A model generated the notes under the pieces. It made no database searches and was not told the origin of the DNA. It saw nothing but the letters and a program-made list of their open reading frames with translations. The translations under genes and the position numbers were made by a program. Positions 7,607 to 17,592 of a stretch of DNA of 55,301 nucleotides are shown piece by piece. Position 1 is the stretch's first letter. Each line of letters begins with the position of its first letter. Origin of the DNA: an uncultured Pseudomonadota bacterium (GTDB lineage Bacteria > Myxococcota_A > UBA796 > GCA-2862545); assembly GCA_903861005.1 (NCBI GenBank), contig CAIOSP010000142.1, forward strand, positions 1 to 55,301, written 5' to 3'.

Positions 7607-8318
7607 GTGCGCCTCTTTGGCCGGAGGCTCGTCTCCGACTCTGAGGACAACATGCCGTCATCACTCCGCGCCGTGGATGACGAGTCGATGAGAACATGGG
7701 TCGGTGCCGAGGTCGCTCATGGAATGACCTTGCTCTGCGTCCGGACGCCTTCCGGACGTCGATCCGGAAGGCGCGTACCCGTTGGTGTTCGCCCTCGATC
7801 CGATCGTCGCCGTCTTGAAGGACTACGACCGCACCGTCGGCCTGATCCGCGCTCACGAGGCGGAGGTCACGCCGGATCCGCGCCCCGCTCCAGGAAGCGC
7901 GGCGGTCAGCCTGTGGGCTTCGGAGGCGCGCGTCGGCGTCACGCCGGTGGGTGGGGGCAGCTCACGAGGAGATCGCGGCGGGAGAGGGCGTCTGGCGGTC
8001 GGTCGGCAACGGGGGCAGGATCTTAAAATGCGTGTGCTCCTTCCCCGTGAGCGCGTCCACGAGGACGGTGTTCTCTCGCTGCATTCCGAAGGCCGCCGAC
8101 CTGTCGGCCCGCGGCCAAGCCGCGCGCGGACGTCGTGGGTGAATTGATCCGCTCGCCTTCGTAGACCCTGGAATGCGTGACACGGTCAGAACGACGCGTA
8201 GAAACCGCCGCGTGGACCCTTCAAGATCGCGCAAGGAGCCCAAGATACCCCCGGGATTGACGCGTGTCCGACCGCATGCGATGTCGGTCCCGGGATGACA
8301 GATCCTGAGAGGCCTGCC
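7607..8318. other. Gene-poor stretch with repeat copy C and a coding-like fragment
   Basis: No intact gene could be supported. On the plus strand at about 7760-7900 one frame reads like protein (P-D-V-D-P-E-G-A-Y-P-L-V-F-A-L-D-P-I-V, then L-I-R-A-H-E-A-E-V), but it lacks a convincing start and soon turns into biased sequence that runs over the repeat at 8022. It may be a relic. Promoters of the two flanking, outward-pointing genes must also lie here. Confidence 0.45.
8022..8040 (+). repeat. Dispersed short repeat, copy C
   Basis: CTTAAAATGCGTGTGCTCC, two differences from copies A and B. A GGGGGCAGGAT lead-in resembles the GGGGAGGAG before the other copies. On the minus strand it can be read as E-H-T-H-F-K-I-L-P-P-L-P. 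Confidence 0.5.
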
Positions 8319-9452
8319 ATGCGTGCGCTGTTCGTTGCCCTCGCCCTCGCCGTCACCGCCTGCTCCCCGCGGCCGCCAGACGACGCTGACACCACCCCCG
8401 CGCTGCCGATCGCGTTCTCCGATCCGGCCGCCGATGGTCCCTACGACGTCGGCATCTCCACCTTCCTGCTCCCTGAGGTCGCCGGCTACATGAACGTGCC
8501 GGTCGAGGTGTGGTACCCGACGTCCACCCCCTCCGCGGAGCGCACGACGTACGACTTCGTCGGCCTCCCCTTGCCGGCGAATGGCTACCGCGACGCCCCG
8601 CCTGATCTCACCGCGCCAAACCTCGTCGTCGCCTTCAGCCACGGGTTCGGCGGCGCCCGGCAGCAGAACTACACGATGGCAGAGCGACTGGCCTCCCACG
8701 GGTTCGTGGTGGTCGCGCCCGATCATCCCGGCACGACCACGCTCGACTTCCTCGCCACCTACGGCGACCTCGGCCCCTCGCTGCTCCGCCGCCCCTACAC
8801 GGTCCGGGCGGCGGTGGACGCGGTGTTGGACGGGGCGGTGAAGGGTCTGGACCTGCACCGCGAGACCTACGGCATGATCGGGCACAGCCTCGGCGCGTGG
8901 ACGGCGCTCGCGGTCAGCGGCGGCGCGCTGTCGTCGGACGCGTTCCACGCCGCGTGCGACGGAGACGACCACCCAGCCTCGTGCGAGATCATCGGCGACA
9001 TCACCTACACCGACGAGGAGGTGGAGGAGTACGGCCAGCCCGACCCGCGCGTCACCACCACCATCCTGCAATCCCCGGGCGGCTACTACAGCTTCGAGTC
9101 GTCCTCGCTCGCGCGCATCGAACGGCCGCTGGTCATGGGCGGCACCCTCGACGACACGCTCCCCTACGAGGCCGAGACAGTCCCGACCTTCGACCTGCTC
9201 GCCTCGCCGGCCACGCTCATGACGCTCGAGGGCGCGGGCCACTACGGCTACACGAACATGTGCGATCTCTCCATCGCCACCATGTTCGCGAAGGACTGCG
9301 AAGGCGTGGAAGGCGGCTTCGCGGATCCCTTCGTCGTGCGTGAGCTCGCCGCCGAATACGTCGTCGCTTGGATGGGCAGCACGCTGGGCGAGCAGCCGCA
9401 GTACGGCGATTGGCTCGGCGCGCGCGATGGCGTGGAGTGGCTGCAGAAGTGA
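8319..9452 (+). CDS. Lipoprotein alpha/beta-hydrolase (PAF-acetylhydrolase/dienelactone-hydrolase-like)
   Basis: 377 residues. Signal peptide with lipobox A-V-T-A-C (Cys15), so it is probably anchored in a membrane. The hydrolase core is clear: oxyanion-type F-S-H-G-F-G-G at about 107-112, P-D-H-P-G, the nucleophile elbow G-H-S-L-G (Ser190), a later G-T-L-D-D as candidate acid, and G-A-G-H-Y as the catalytic His loop. The start Y-D-V-G-I-S-T followed by V-E-V-W-Y-P-T is typical of platelet-activating-factor acetylhydrolase-like and dienelactone-hydrolase-like proteins. The substrate is unknown, probably an ester or lipid. GAGAGG seven bases before this ATG favours it over the upstream in-frame ATG. 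An insert with a few cysteines lies after the nucleophile. Confidence 0.85.
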   Translation: MRALFVALALAVTACSPRPPDDADTTPALPIAFSDPAADGPYDVGISTFLLPEVAGYMNVPVEVWYPTSTPSAERTTYDFVGLPLPANGYRDAPPDLTAPNLVVAFSHGFGGARQQNYTMAERLASHGFVVVAPDHPGTTTLDFLATYGDLGPSLLRRPYTVRAAVDAVLDGAVKGLDLHRETYGMIGHSLGAWTALAVSGGALSSDAFHAACDGDDHPASCEIIGDITYTDEEVEEYGQPDPRVTTTILQSPGGYYSFESSSLARIERPLVMGGTLDDTLPYEAETVPTFDLLASPATLMTLEGAGHYGYTNMCDLSIATMFAKDCEGVEGGFADPFVVRELAAEYVVAWMGSTLGEQPQYGDWLGARDGVEWLQK

Positions 9453-9682: not shown

Positions 9683-11188
9683 TCACCCGCAGTCCGCCGC
9701 GCAGTTGTCCACGGTCTCCGGGCCGTCGCACACGCCGTCCCCGCAGCACCCCGAGGTCTGCCCCGGCTCACAGTCCGCGGCCGCCGGTCCGCCGCCACCG
9801 ACCGCGCCTATGTCCCCGATCGCCGACAGCAGGGCGGGCGACACGAGCGCGACCGCGTAGGTCAGGCACATCTCGTCGAGCGTGCCCTCGCCCCAGGTGA
9901 CGTCCCGCGGCGTGAGCTGCTCGCCGTTCACCACGGGCTGGTTGGCGGCCGAGTTGTCGAACCTGCAGGTCATGCGCAGCGTCGTGTCGGATCCGACCTG
10001 CGCCCACTGGTCCTCGGGGAAGAAGTAGGACTGCTGCCAGCTGAAGTTCCACTCGGGGATGTCGAGCAGGCACGCCTCGTCCTGCCCGGTCCGCTGCATG
10101 TCGAGCGAGATCGCCCTCCCGAGCTGGTGCATGTGGCCCATGACGCCGATGATCGGCACCTCGATCGGCGCGTTGCCAAACAGCGGCTGGAGGTTGAGTG
10201 TGTTCTCCTGCGCCGCGTTGGGCTCGCCGGCGGGGATGCGGATGTCCATGTTCGGGAACGGGATCTGCAGCACCGCCTGCGTCGGCGTCTCACCCGCCGG
10301 GTACAGCCAGATGCGCGTCGCCGTGCGGTCGCCCGGCACCTCGTCCTGCGTGCGGCCCAGCGTGTTGTAGTGGATCTGCATCACGAGCTTGGTGCCCGCG
10401 TCGACGTACCGGCCGATGCCCTCGGGTAGGAACTCGCCGACCTGACCGGGCGCCCAGGCGAGCACGGTGGTGGCCGTGGGGTTGCCGGGGCAGGCGTACC
10501 CGGGTTCGGGATCGGCGGCGTCGAGCTGCGTGAGGCTCGCGGCCTCGCTCGCGTCGAACGCGTACAGGATCAGGTGGTGCACGATCTCCGCCTCCTCGGG
10601 CGCCACCTCCAGGCCGCGGATCCAGGTGCCCTCGGTGAAGTCATGATCGACGACGATGCACCGGTAGTCGTCGGGTCTCGACACCACTGGCGTGTACGGA
10701 TCCGGCGACGCGAGCACCAGGTCCGGATCGCCCCAGGCGTCGCGGCGGTCGAGCATCGGGTGCTCGATCGGCGCGGGCGAGACGTAGTCGGACTCGTCGC
10801 CCGCGGGGAAGTTCGCGGCGGCCCACGCGGCCACCGTGTCGCGCTGTTCGGTGGTGAGCGCGCGGCTGTCCTGGATCGCGTGGCAGTCTTGGGACGGCAT
10901 CCACGGAGGCATCTCACCCGCCGCCACCGACAGCGCGGCCTGCTGGGCCCACGCGGGCGGGCCGTCCGCCCAGGCCGCCGCGTCGTAGGTGATGTCGAAC
11001 GTGCCGATCCCGCCCGGCTGGTGGCAGCTCTGGCAGCGCTGCTCGAAGATCGGGCGGACGTCGGCCTGGTAGGTCGGCGTGGAGTCGGTCGTGCACGCGG
11101 ACGCGAACGACGCGGCGATCGCGAGCGCGGCGGCCCGCCGGGGCGACGGGGATCCAGCGGCGACGCCTCGAACGATCCACTCACGCAT
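9683..11188 (-). CDS. Heme-c domain fused to a PHM/DBH-like copper monooxygenase, lipoprotein
   Basis: 501 residues. N-terminus with lipobox A-S-A-C (Cys32). Residues about 40-130 form a small cytochrome c-like domain with one heme site C-Q-S-C-H (52-56) and a candidate axial Met in G-E-M-P-P-W-M-P. Residues about 150-450 resemble the copper type II, ascorbate-dependent monooxygenase fold. The six copper ligands known from PHM can be placed: His204-His205 and His273 (I-H-Y-N) for one copper, His352-x-His354 (G-H-M-H) and Met440 (D-E-M-C) for the other. The C-terminus ends in a Cys-rich C-C-G-D-G-V-C...C-A-A-D-C segment seen in myxobacterial surface proteins. A hydroxylating role is inferred, with the heme perhaps feeding electrons. 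GGAGAG precedes the ATG. Confidence 0.75.
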   Translation of the reverse strand: MREWIVRGVAAGSPSPRRAAALAIAASFASACTTDSTPTYQADVRPIFEQRCQSCHQPGGIGTFDITYDAAAWADGPPAWAQQAALSVAAGEMPPWMPSQDCHAIQDSRALTTEQRDTVAAWAAANFPAGDESDYVSPAPIEHPMLDRRDAWGDPDLVLASPDPYTPVVSRPDDYRCIVVDHDFTEGTWIRGLEVAPEEAEIVHHLILYAFDASEAASLTQLDAADPEPGYACPGNPTATTVLAWAPGQVGEFLPEGIGRYVDAGTKLVMQIHYNTLGRTQDEVPGDRTATRIWLYPAGETPTQAVLQIPFPNMDIRIPAGEPNAAQENTLNLQPLFGNAPIEVPIIGVMGHMHQLGRAISLDMQRTGQDEACLLDIPEWNFSWQQSYFFPEDQWAQVGSDTTLRMTCRFDNSAANQPVVNGEQLTPRDVTWGEGTLDEMCLTYAVALVSPALLSAIGDIGAVGGGGPAAADCEPGQTSGCCGDGVCDGPETVDNCAADCG

Positions 11189-11969: not shown

Positions 11970-12947
11970 TCAGGCCGGGAGCATCCCGGCGGCGCGGTAC
12001 CCTTGGACGGCGTGGACCATGGCTTTGTCGATCGCGTACTGTGGCGCCCAGCCCAGCTCCGCCCGCAGGCGCGCGCTCGAGCACACGAACGCGGGCGCGG
12101 TGATCTGGCGCACCTGCTTGTCGTCGAGCTGGTTGTGGAAGGGGACGACCGACGCCGCGGCCGTGGCGACGCCGCTCGCCGCGCGCAGGACCCACTTGGG
12201 CACCGGCACCACCCACACGCGTCGCCCGACGGCGTGCCCGATCGCGCCCCACAGGGCGTGAATGTCGGTGTCGTCGGGGTGGCTGGTGAAGTAGGTCTGC
12301 GAGCCCGGGCGCGTGTCGTCCGCCATGCGCAGCAGCGCGTCGACCAGGTCGCGTACGTCCACCCACGACAGCCGCTGCGGCGGGCCCGCGGCGCGCATGC
12401 CGACGCCGGCGCGCGCGGCCTGAAACAGCGTGAGCGTGGCCTCGTCCTCAGGACCAAAGACCATAGGCGGGCGGAAGATCGTGGTGGGGAAGGGGGCGGC
12501 GCGTACGACGACCTCCGCCCGGGCCTTGGCGTCGCCGTAGGGATCGATCGGCGCGGGCGTGTCGGCCTCGGTCCAGGGGCGGTCGGCGGGCGACGGCCCC
12601 GCCGCGGCGAGCGACGACGCGAACAGCAGGCGACGCGGCGGCGTGGCCTGTCGGGTCAGGCACGCGACCAGATCCTCGACCGCGTGCAGGTTGATGCGCG
12701 CGTAGTCGGCCGGGTCGGCCGCGGTCACCACGCCGGCCAAGTGGATCACGACGTCACACTCCGGGAGCGCGAAGTCGGGGTTCGCGAACGAGGACAGATC
12801 GCCCTGCAGCACGTCCACGCCCGGCGCGAGGACGGACGCCTTGGACGGCGTGCGCAGCAGCGCGGTGACGGTGTGGCCGCGGGCGATCGCCTCGCGGCAC
12901 AGGTGTCGACCGATGAAGCCGGTGGCCCCGGTGATGAACAAGCGCAT
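11970..12947 (-). CDS. NAD-dependent epimerase/dehydratase-like (extended SDR) protein
   Basis: 325 residues, as expected for extended SDRs. Rossmann motif T-G-A-T-G-F-I-G at 7-14, an H-L-A-G-V-V loop, catalytic Ser in A-S-S-L-A-A-A-G and Tyr/Lys in Y-G-D-A-K. After this comes F-R-P-P-M-V-F-G-P and the usual V-D-V-R-D-L-V-D. The pattern fits the broad group of nucleoside-diphosphate-sugar epimerases, 3-beta-HSD-like and hopanoid-associated epimerases. The product cannot be named from sequence. It is convergent with the CxxC membrane protein and points away from the phosphatase gene. Confidence 0.85.
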   Translation of the reverse strand: MRLFITGATGFIGRHLCREAIARGHTVTALLRTPSKASVLAPGVDVLQGDLSSFANPDFALPECDVVIHLAGVVTAADPADYARINLHAVEDLVACLTRQATPPRRLLFASSLAAAGPSPADRPWTEADTPAPIDPYGDAKARAEVVVRAAPFPTTIFRPPMVFGPEDEATLTLFQAARAGVGMRAAGPPQRLSWVDVRDLVDALLRMADDTRPGSQTYFTSHPDDTDIHALWGAIGHAVGRRVWVVPVPKWVLRAASGVATAAASVVPFHNQLDDKQVRQITAPAFVCSSARLRAELGWAPQYAIDKAMVHAVQGYRAAGMLPA

Positions 12948-15360: not shown

Positions 15361-17592
15361 ATGAGCGTCGGCCCTGCAGCCCAAGGTGCGCACACCGCGA
15401 CGATCAACGGTCGGAAGATCCGCGTGGAGCCCAAGGAGACGCTGCTCCAGGCCGCGCTCCGCGAAGGCGTCGCGTTCCCGAACAGCTGCCGCGTGGGCGG
15501 GTGTGCCACCTGCAAGTGCCGGCTGGTCGAGGGTGAGGTCAAGGAGCTGACCGAGTCGACGTACTTGCTGTCGGACGAGGAGTTGGACGCGCGAACCATC
15601 CTGGCCTGCCAGAGCGTGCCGCAGACCGACGTGACGATCGAGGTCGCGCTGAAGGACGGCGCTCGTCGCGTCGCCAGAGGCGTCGTCACCGCCAAGGAGT
15701 CGCTGACCGCAGACATCGCGCGGCTGCACGTGCAACTCGACGCGCCGCTCGACTACAAGCCAGGTCAGTTCGCCAACCTTCGGCTCGGATCGCTGCCAGG
15801 CCTTTCGCGCAGCTACTCGTTCGCCACCCCGCCGCGCGTGGACGGGCAGCTCACGTTCTTCGTGCGCAAGGTGCCAGGCGGCGCGTTCTCCACGCGCGTG
15901 GTCGACCACGACGTAGTCGGTGAGTCGATCACGGTGGAGGGGCCCGCGGGTGTGTTCGTGCTTCGCCCCGGCGAGGCGCCGCTGATCTTCGTGGCGGGCG
16001 GCAGCGGGCTGGCGCCGGTGCTGTCGATTCTGCGCGCCGCGGTGGACGCGGGCGACGCGCGCCCGGCGACGCTGCTGTTCGGCGCGCGCACCCAGGCAGA
16101 CCTGTACGCGCAAGACGAGATCGACGCGATCGCCAAGGCGTGGCGCGGGTCGTTCACTTTTGTGCCGGTGCTGTCGGACACGGCCGCGGACACCGCGTGG
16201 GCGGGCGCCCGAGGCATGGTGGCGGACCACCTGGCGCCCTACGTGGTCGAGGGGGCGCACGCCTACCTGTGCGGGCCGCCGCCCATGGTCGACGCGGCGG
16301 AGTCGGCGCTGCGCGCGCGCGGCGTGTCCAAGCAGCACATCCACGCGGACCGCTTCACCACGCGCAAGGAGCTGGTCTCGGCCGCACCCGCGCCGCAGGT
16401 CGACGCGCGGGTGGCTGGGGTGTTGGACTACCTCAAGTACTTCCTGTTCCACGGGATCGGCGCGTACGCGGTGTGGGGCATCCTGGCGGGCGGGAGCGCG
16501 ACGTACATCGGCCTGTTCGGGATCATCGTCGCGTACATGCTGGGCGACGGGCTGCTGGGGGACGACACGTCCACGCCGCGTTTCACGCGCCCCCGCATCC
16601 TCACCGTGCAGCTGTGGATGGCGCTGCCGCTGCTCTGCGTGATCGTTTTCGCGTCGCTGTGGATGGTGTCACCCGGAGATCCGCTGGGCTTTGGCGCGTG
16701 GGCCTCGTCGCTCACCGGCGTCGATCTGCTCGCGTCGCGCGCGGCGACGACGTTCGGCGAGCACGTCGCGGCGGGCGTGATCACCGGGCTGATGATCGGG
16801 CTCGTCGGCACGATCCCCGGGCATGAGCTGACGCACCGGACGTGGGATCCGATCTCGCTGACGATCGGGCGCTGGCTGCTCGCGTTCAGCTTCGACACCA
16901 TCTTCTCGATCGAGCACGTCTTCGGGCACCACCGCTACGTGTCGACGATCGACGATCCGGCGACCGCGCCGCGCGGGCGCAGCGTGTACGTCCACGTCGT
17001 GGCGTCGACGATCAAGGGCAACGTCAGCGCGTGGAAGATCGAGACGCGCCGCCTGGAGCGCAAGCGCCTCGCGGTGTTCAGCGTGCACAACGTGTTCCTG
17101 CGTGGGCAGGCGATGAGCGCGCTGCTGCTGGTCCTCGCATTCGCGATCGGCGGGTGGAGCGCGATCGGGTACTTCGTGGCCTGCGGGCTGTGGGGCAAGT
17201 CGCTCTTGGAGATCGTGAACTACATGGAGCACTACGGCATGGTGCGCGATCCCGACGTGCCCGTGCAGCCGCGCCACTCCTGGAACACCAACCGGCGCAT
17301 CAGCAGCTGGGCGATGTTCAACCTGACGCGGCACTCGCACCACCACGCCCAGGGTGAGGTCGCGTACCAGGATCTGCGGCCCATGCCCGAGGCGCCGATG
17401 ATGATCAACGGCTACCTCACGACCATCCTGGTCACGCTGGTGCCGCCGCTCTGGCACGCGCTGATGACGCCCAAGGTCCTGGCGTGGGATCGCGAGTACG
17501 CGACCGACGACGAGAAGGTCCTCGCGGCGCGCGCGAACGCCCGCAGCGGCATGCGCGCCTTCCAGCAGACGGGCGCGTCGGCCGCCAAGTAG
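15361..17592 (+). CDS. Self-sufficient AlkB/XylM-type hydroxylase fused to ferredoxin-NAD(P)H reductase
   Basis: 743 residues, combining two proteins that are usually separate. Residues about 11-95: plant-type [2Fe-2S] ferredoxin with Cys43, 48, 51 and 83. Residues 100-335: FNR-type reductase with flavin motif R-S-Y-S-F-A (150-155), G-G-S-G-L-A-P (213-219) and C-G-P-P-P-M (304-309). Residues about 355-715: integral-membrane di-iron hydroxylase with the AlkB histidine boxes H-E-L-T-H (488-492), E-H-V-F-G-H-H (518-524), N-Y-M-E-H-Y-G (620-626) and R-H-S-H-H-H (657-662), between several membrane segments. The order equals XylA followed by XylM. Expected role: NAD(P)H-driven terminal hydroxylation of alkanes, fatty acyl chains or alkylbenzenes at the inner membrane. 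GGAG precedes the ATG by six bases. Confidence 0.9.
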   Translation: MSVGPAAQGAHTATINGRKIRVEPKETLLQAALREGVAFPNSCRVGGCATCKCRLVEGEVKELTESTYLLSDEELDARTILACQSVPQTDVTIEVALKDGARRVARGVVTAKESLTADIARLHVQLDAPLDYKPGQFANLRLGSLPGLSRSYSFATPPRVDGQLTFFVRKVPGGAFSTRVVDHDVVGESITVEGPAGVFVLRPGEAPLIFVAGGSGLAPVLSILRAAVDAGDARPATLLFGARTQADLYAQDEIDAIAKAWRGSFTFVPVLSDTAADTAWAGARGMVADHLAPYVVEGAHAYLCGPPPMVDAAESALRARGVSKQHIHADRFTTRKELVSAAPAPQVDARVAGVLDYLKYFLFHGIGAYAVWGILAGGSATYIGLFGIIVAYMLGDGLLGDDTSTPRFTRPRILTVQLWMALPLLCVIVFASLWMVSPGDPLGFGAWASSLTGVDLLASRAATTFGEHVAAGVITGLMIGLVGTIPGHELTHRTWDPISLTIGRWLLAFSFDTIFSIEHVFGHHRYVSTIDDPATAPRGRSVYVHVVASTIKGNVSAWKIETRRLERKRLAVFSVHNVFLRGQAMSALLLVLAFAIGGWSAIGYFVACGLWGKSLLEIVNYMEHYGMVRDPDVPVQPRHSWNTNRRISSWAMFNLTRHSHHHAQGEVAYQDLRPMPEAPMMINGYLTTILVTLVPPLWHALMTPKVLAWDREYATDDEKVLAARANARSGMRAFQQTGASAAK

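Follow-up and report, generated by a model that had tools for sequence, protein, structure and literature searches.

The two-copper oxygenase core of peptidylglycine α-hydroxylating monooxygenase (PHM) is used by animals to finish peptide hormones. In PHM and in dopamine β-hydroxylase (DBH), as set out in passages of two papers, O2 is bound at CuM, an electron arrives from CuH, and both electrons come from ascorbate (PMC4846438, PMC6123673). How the electrons enter these enzymes, and how they cross the ~11 Å between the coppers, is described in the same passages as a matter of long debate. An excerpt of one survey describes the PHM/DBH fold as widespread in eukaryotes (PMC8812541). Human DBH has the same catalytic core as PHM, with an extra domain N-terminal of it, and also uses ascorbate. 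This extra domain is a DOMON domain and not a cytochrome c; a section of PMC4846438 describes DOMON as an Ig-like sandwich, belonging to a class some of whose members bind heme or sugars.

Here we describe a bacterial gene whose product joins a PHM-type core to a heme c domain. Rat PHM, as described in part of PMC6123673, differs from it in having no heme and in using ascorbate as reductant. The two share the two-domain core, the six copper ligands in the same order, and the equivalents of PHM Gln170 and of a core Tyr. The heme domain has its own known counterparts among small cytochromes of the PF13442 type, such as the PccH-type protein 4RLR and hydrazine synthase α (5C2V). Both share with it the CxxCH site and the motif leading into that site, and 5C2V shares the C-terminal helix motif as well; unlike the protein described here, however, these small c-type cytochromes have no PHM core attached. 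We found no description of a cytochrome c–PHM fusion in the open-access literature searched, which does not imply its absence in print. Probably, the protein is exported and anchored to the membrane, and is a dicopper hydroxylase with the PHM/DBH fold whose electron donor, a heme c, is part of the same chain.

Results and Discussion

The gene lies at 9683–11188 on the minus strand of the window, the whole stretch of 55,301 nucleotides that was analysed, and encodes an uninterrupted lipoprotein reading frame of 501 residues from its ATG. A Pfam scan of the protein gave the expected domain order of cytochrome c domain, Cu2_monooxygen and Cu2_monoox_C. With hmmscan, Cu2_monoox_C (PF03712) scored 25.1 bits, above its cut-off of 23, and the cytochrome (PF13442) 23.7 bits, below its cut-off of 27. 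Cu2_monooxygen (PF01082) scored 28.8 bits by hmmscan, just below its cut-off of 30, and 31.1 bits, above it, in the genome search. NCBIfam gave no model for the window protein (one weak match far under cut-off), nor for 71 family members.

Relatives were ranked with the full-length query, and the conservation counts below refer to 80 named loci, which are the best 80 of 150 relatives. The genome-scan patterns were drawn from the copper core alone and included its HMH and YRC motifs, so the way the loci were chosen accounts in part for the conservation seen in those columns.

Residues 1–32 (11093–11188, minus strand) form a signal peptide with a lipobox-type Cys32 (FASAC). The lipobox is weak by itself, and its Cys aligns in 77 of the best 80 of 150 relatives, which supports the earlier proposal of an extracytoplasmic lipoprotein. 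The sequence-only reading had also argued for this location from the Cys-rich C-terminal tail (9689–9772, minus strand). That argument has been dropped because the tail is absent from the four other full-length copies in the same genome; it is confined to the window protein and a near-identical twin, L037 (98% identity). The tail motif, C-G-D-G-x-C...E....C..D-C, was found elsewhere in 1.04 Mb (the window plus 116 loci) in the same gene (L004, L007, L037) and in one other reading frame, in L092. Separately, a Cys-rich C-terminal stretch of 118–146 residues follows the core in L040–L045, L048–L051, L053 and L104.

The copper core is made up of a CuH half, residues 170–276 (10361–10681, minus strand; PF01082 match, genome search and fold match), and a CuM half, residues 344–444 (9857–10159, minus strand; PF03712 and fold match). 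All six copper ligands are at the positions assigned to them by the sequence-only reading. Those of CuH are the pair His204-His205 (10574–10579, minus strand; PHM H107 and H108 in the PHM alignment) and His273 (10370–10372, minus strand; PHM H172), each conserved in 80/80 of the best 80 of 150 relatives. Those of CuM are His352-x-His354 (10127–10135, minus strand; PHM H242 and H244), conserved in 79 of these 80, the exception being a truncated row, and Met440 (9869–9871, minus strand; PHM M314), conserved in 78. The full set of six is kept in 78 of the same best 80 of 150; the two exceptions are L047, which ends at a contig edge, and L089, which has no equivalent of Met440.

Other features of the core are conserved as well. 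Residues Cys177, Cys233, Cys408 and Cys441 are kept in 80, 80, 78 and 78 of the best 80 of 150 relatives, and we take the pairs 177/233 and 408/441 to be the equivalents of the PHM disulfides 81–126 and 293–315. Gln271 (PHM Q170) and Tyr175, the Tyr before the first core Cys, are each found in 80/80 of the same set. In PHM, according to a passage of PMC6123673, Q170 is part of a water network linking H108 and the peptide. Among 71 family members, Cu2_monooxygen was detected in 66 and Cu2_monoox_C in 71 (E ≤ 0.01).

When the window protein alone was compared with the PDB (phmmer, E ≤ 1), no PHM match was obtained, and the one cytochrome match had E = 0.75. A profile of the five copies from its own genome matched the rat PHM chains with E = 3.4e-8 over profile positions 148–442. 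Aligned with PHM, the profile matches its HH pair, its H172 site together with the Gln two residues upstream, the Tyr and Cys with which the core opens, and the closing E-M-C. The HxH pair is offset by two positions, and HxH-x-L-G is evident by eye in both sequences. Since the single sequence finds no PHM in the PDB, the case for homology is built on the profile and on the fold.

An AlphaFold2 model was made from an alignment of 71 sequences including the window protein, with 10 of the 80 loci (near-duplicate, truncated or deviant) omitted. It has a mean pLDDT of 86.7 and a pTM of 0.83, and the only segments below 50 pLDDT are residues 1–13 and 465–501. Foldseek placed PHM and DBH chains at ranks 1 to 31, with a best E of 2.0e-16. 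By VIA-align, 26 PHM/DBH entries matched with Z of 20.8–25.5 over 251–292 residues, mostly model residues 150–468; the next fold, of the PNGase F type, had Z = 8.1. The rat PHM structures 1PHM, 1OPM and 1SDW gave Z of 24.2–24.4 at about 19–20% identity, and human DBH (4ZEL) gave 25.5. Thus, the two PHM β-domains on which the sequence-only reading had staked its claim are present in the model. Because the model superposes closely on PHM and DBH, a PHM-type two-site copper layout is likely.

The heme c domain (PF13442-like; Pfam match and model) spans residues 38–140 (10769–11077, minus strand). It contains CQSCH at residues 52–56 (11021–11035, minus strand), the covalent heme c site with His56 as proximal ligand, and Met93 in an MPPW motif (10910–10912, minus strand). 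A CxxCH site and a candidate Met ahead of the copper ligands had been proposed beforehand, and both proved well conserved: the two heme Cys, the His and Met93 are found in 80/80 of the best 80 of 150 relatives, although L073 has the variant site C-x3-CH, with one extra residue between the Cys. The other residue considered, position 103, is His in just 5 of these best 80 of 150. Met93 is therefore most likely the distal heme ligand, to judge from its column in the alignment.

Residues 33–140 modelled alone gave a pLDDT of 91.1, with helices at the N- and C-terminal ends. With this isolated domain the best Foldseek match had E = 3.7, which is not significant, and four of its six rows were c-type cytochromes or respiratory subunits; VIA-align returned a single row with Z = 2.0. 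A sequence profile of the heme domain, from an alignment of 67 rows including the window protein (14 of the 80 loci omitted), matched the PccH-type cytochrome and the hydrazine synthase heme domain with E = 5e-4 each. Antitermination protein Q also appeared in this list, at E = 0.0036 and higher, and was taken as a chance match. Cytochrome_CBB3 (PF13442) was detected in 48 of the 71 family members at E ≤ 0.01. The proposed fusion of a PHM-like copper core to a heme c domain is thus supported by the Pfam order, the profile and the PHM/DBH fold of the core. We infer that the protein is loaded with both heme and copper and carries out monooxygenase chemistry.

The heme site is present in all of the best 80 of 150 relatives kept, although the scan patterns came from the copper core alone. 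Furthermore, the spacing from His56 to His204 is 134–148 residues in all 81 rows (the same 80 and the window protein), so the distance in sequence between the heme and copper domains varies little. The window protein's own genome has five full-length copies, the other four being 33–55% identical to it, and the six copper ligands, the heme site, Met93 and the lipobox Cys are invariant across the five. A sixth copy, L122 on contig C111 of the same genome, has an early break and carries a Tyr where the second CuH His would be expected; it is either a decayed copy or an assembly fault.

Among sampled genomes of the phylum Myxococcota, to which the window probably belongs to judge from these relatives, PF03712 matches were found in 98 of 188 and matches to the family profile in 94 of 176. 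In the family-profile matches listed, with two exceptions, the alignment begins at model position 5 or earlier (of 407) and therefore takes in the heme end; nearly all extend over the full model. A survey of Cu2_monoox_C proteins for N-terminal cytochrome c domains, which the sequence-only reading had suggested, showed a fused heme site in 21 of the 29 top-scoring PF03712 loci taken from other genomes (L008–L036). Within the 29, L019 has its heme site in another frame, and L025 starts partway through the heme domain, where its locus ends. Six myxobacterial genomes, reached via named loci, gave 52 matches, 38 of which span from model position 6 or lower to 398 or higher: nine in Nannocystis exedens, six in Paraliomyxa miuraensis, nine in Plesiocystis pacifica, three in Sorangium cellulosum So ceGT47, nine in S. 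cellulosum So ce26 and two in Hyalangium versicolor. The heme c–PHM fusion is a large, conserved, paralogous family, which the sequence-only reading had missed, and it extends the PHM/DBH fold to a large family in bacteria, some of whose carriers are in culture.

A second family copy was seen within the same short locus in L046, L106 and L108, where it is on the same strand, and in L068, L069 and L081 of Nannocystis. The gene is also present in a record titled Klebsiella pneumoniae MAG (L111), which groups with myxobacterial sequences in the tree and is probably a mislabelled bin.

Some relatives have no fused heme, a point that the sequence-only reading likewise missed. The remaining six of the 29 best PF03712 loci (L008, L009, L010, L024, L026 and L031) have no heme site, and the window protein's own genome also has one heme-less PHM-like lipoprotein, L123. 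A protein of the actinomycete Nonomuraea (L125) is 31% identical over 62% of the query and has a lipoprotein-like start; no CxxCH reading frame of at least 80 residues was found in its 7-kb locus. All of these proteins show, by eye, the same copper-ligand pattern as the window protein. Given such relatives, the copper core does not require a fused heme. In a tree of the copper core (89 rows), the heme-less rows fall to one side of the fused rows with support of 81/60 and long branches. When Nonomuraea was added and L123 omitted, the Nonomuraea row joined the fused side on a long branch. L037, L047 and L089 were omitted from the trees.

Is the heme, then, the electron donor? A genuine PHM-type oxygenase might instead be served by another periplasmic reductant, with the heme c sensing redox state or gases, serving for docking or forming a structural cap. 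The heme-less relatives in the same phylum, in the same genome and in an actinomycete are compatible with this idea, as is the N-terminal DOMON domain of DBH, for which part of PMC4846438 gives a proposed role in ligand binding or regulation. We nevertheless consider such a role unlikely, for the heme site and its distal Met show the same degree of conservation as the copper ligands in the best 80 of 150 relatives, and the spacing between the two domains is near-fixed. Furthermore, His/Met ligation is the usual electron-carrier type of heme.

Our preferred reading is that the heme feeds the coppers. In this mechanism, CuM (His352, His354 and Met440) would bind O2 and hydroxylate a C–H bond of a small or extracellular substrate, while CuH (His204, His205 and His273) would relay the second electron. 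Electrons from periplasmic cytochromes would enter at the N-terminal heme c (His56/Met93), which would reload the coppers and so take the role of free ascorbate in the animal enzymes. Most simply, the heme would stand in for ascorbate as final donor, given that the copper sites are kept and that a likely His/Met heme c lies at near-fixed spacing from them. We infer, on good grounds, that electrons pass from heme c to copper; their direct supply from the respiratory chain is plausible. Moreover, that the fusion is common in myxobacteria suggests a copper hydroxylase with its own electron donor, not relying on vitamin C. More tentatively, and as a possibility that we would not yet call probable, the family may consist of widespread, multicopy myxobacterial C–H hydroxylases independent of ascorbate, in which a covalently attached heme c hands respiratory electrons directly to the dicopper site and the paralogs have diversified for various extracellular substrates. 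In such a natural fusion, with a coloured and covalently attached donor, electron flow would be directly traceable by stopped-flow spectroscopy.

What might the substrate be? The roles of PHM residues R240, N316, Y318 and Y79 are those that we assume from the biochemistry of PHM. Arg240, two residues before the CuM HxH, is presumably the Arg that binds the substrate carboxylate. It is absent from the window protein, where Met350 takes its place, and among the relatives with a residue at this position (79 of the best 80 of 150) it is never Arg in 79/79, being Gly, Ala, Met, Ser, Thr and others. At least 76 of the best 80 of 150 have a Leu, Ile, Val or Met where PHM has N316. Given the lack of Arg at the one position and this hydrophobic set at the other, peptidylglycine appears an unlikely substrate. 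The PHM chains are the closest solved sequence relatives, which would fit a bacterial peptidylglycine α-hydroxylase, assisted by heme and making amidated peptides. However, besides the missing Arg, no PAL lyase domain was found in the chain by Pfam, and we regard this alternative as highly improbable. "PHM-like" was accordingly not taken to mean peptide amidation, which on these alignments seems unlikely for the window protein.

The changed substrate contacts (Met350, Leu442) could also be taken to mean that the protein is no monooxygenase in vivo and is instead a peroxygenase, a relay for copper or electrons, or some other oxidase built on these ligands. An excerpt of PMC6123673 states that, in PHM, H2O2 can bypass a normal requirement. 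Against this, all ligands of both copper sites are retained together with Gln271 and Tyr175, and a storage or relay protein would presumably require neither the CuM Met nor the two-site layout. This explanation is distinctly unlikely, and a C–H hydroxylase remains our preferred assignment.

The gene neighbourhood was considered as a guide to the substrate. A reading frame at 8295–9452 is convergent with the gene, and the next clear gene on the other side, at 11970–12947, encodes a separate epimerase-type protein. Clustering of long reading frames at the 80 loci gave no clear conserved neighbour, and GC-rich antisense frames clutter the result; with no conserved neighbour to name a substrate at these loci, operon logic was set aside. 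Ten same-strand neighbours from eight loci belong to different families and include two α/β hydrolases, too few to use. Elsewhere in the window, a reading frame of 743 residues (15361–17592, plus strand) combines a 2Fe-2S ferredoxin, an FAD/NAD reductase and a domain of the fatty-acid-desaturase type, and may encode a membrane di-iron oxygenase fused to its reductase.
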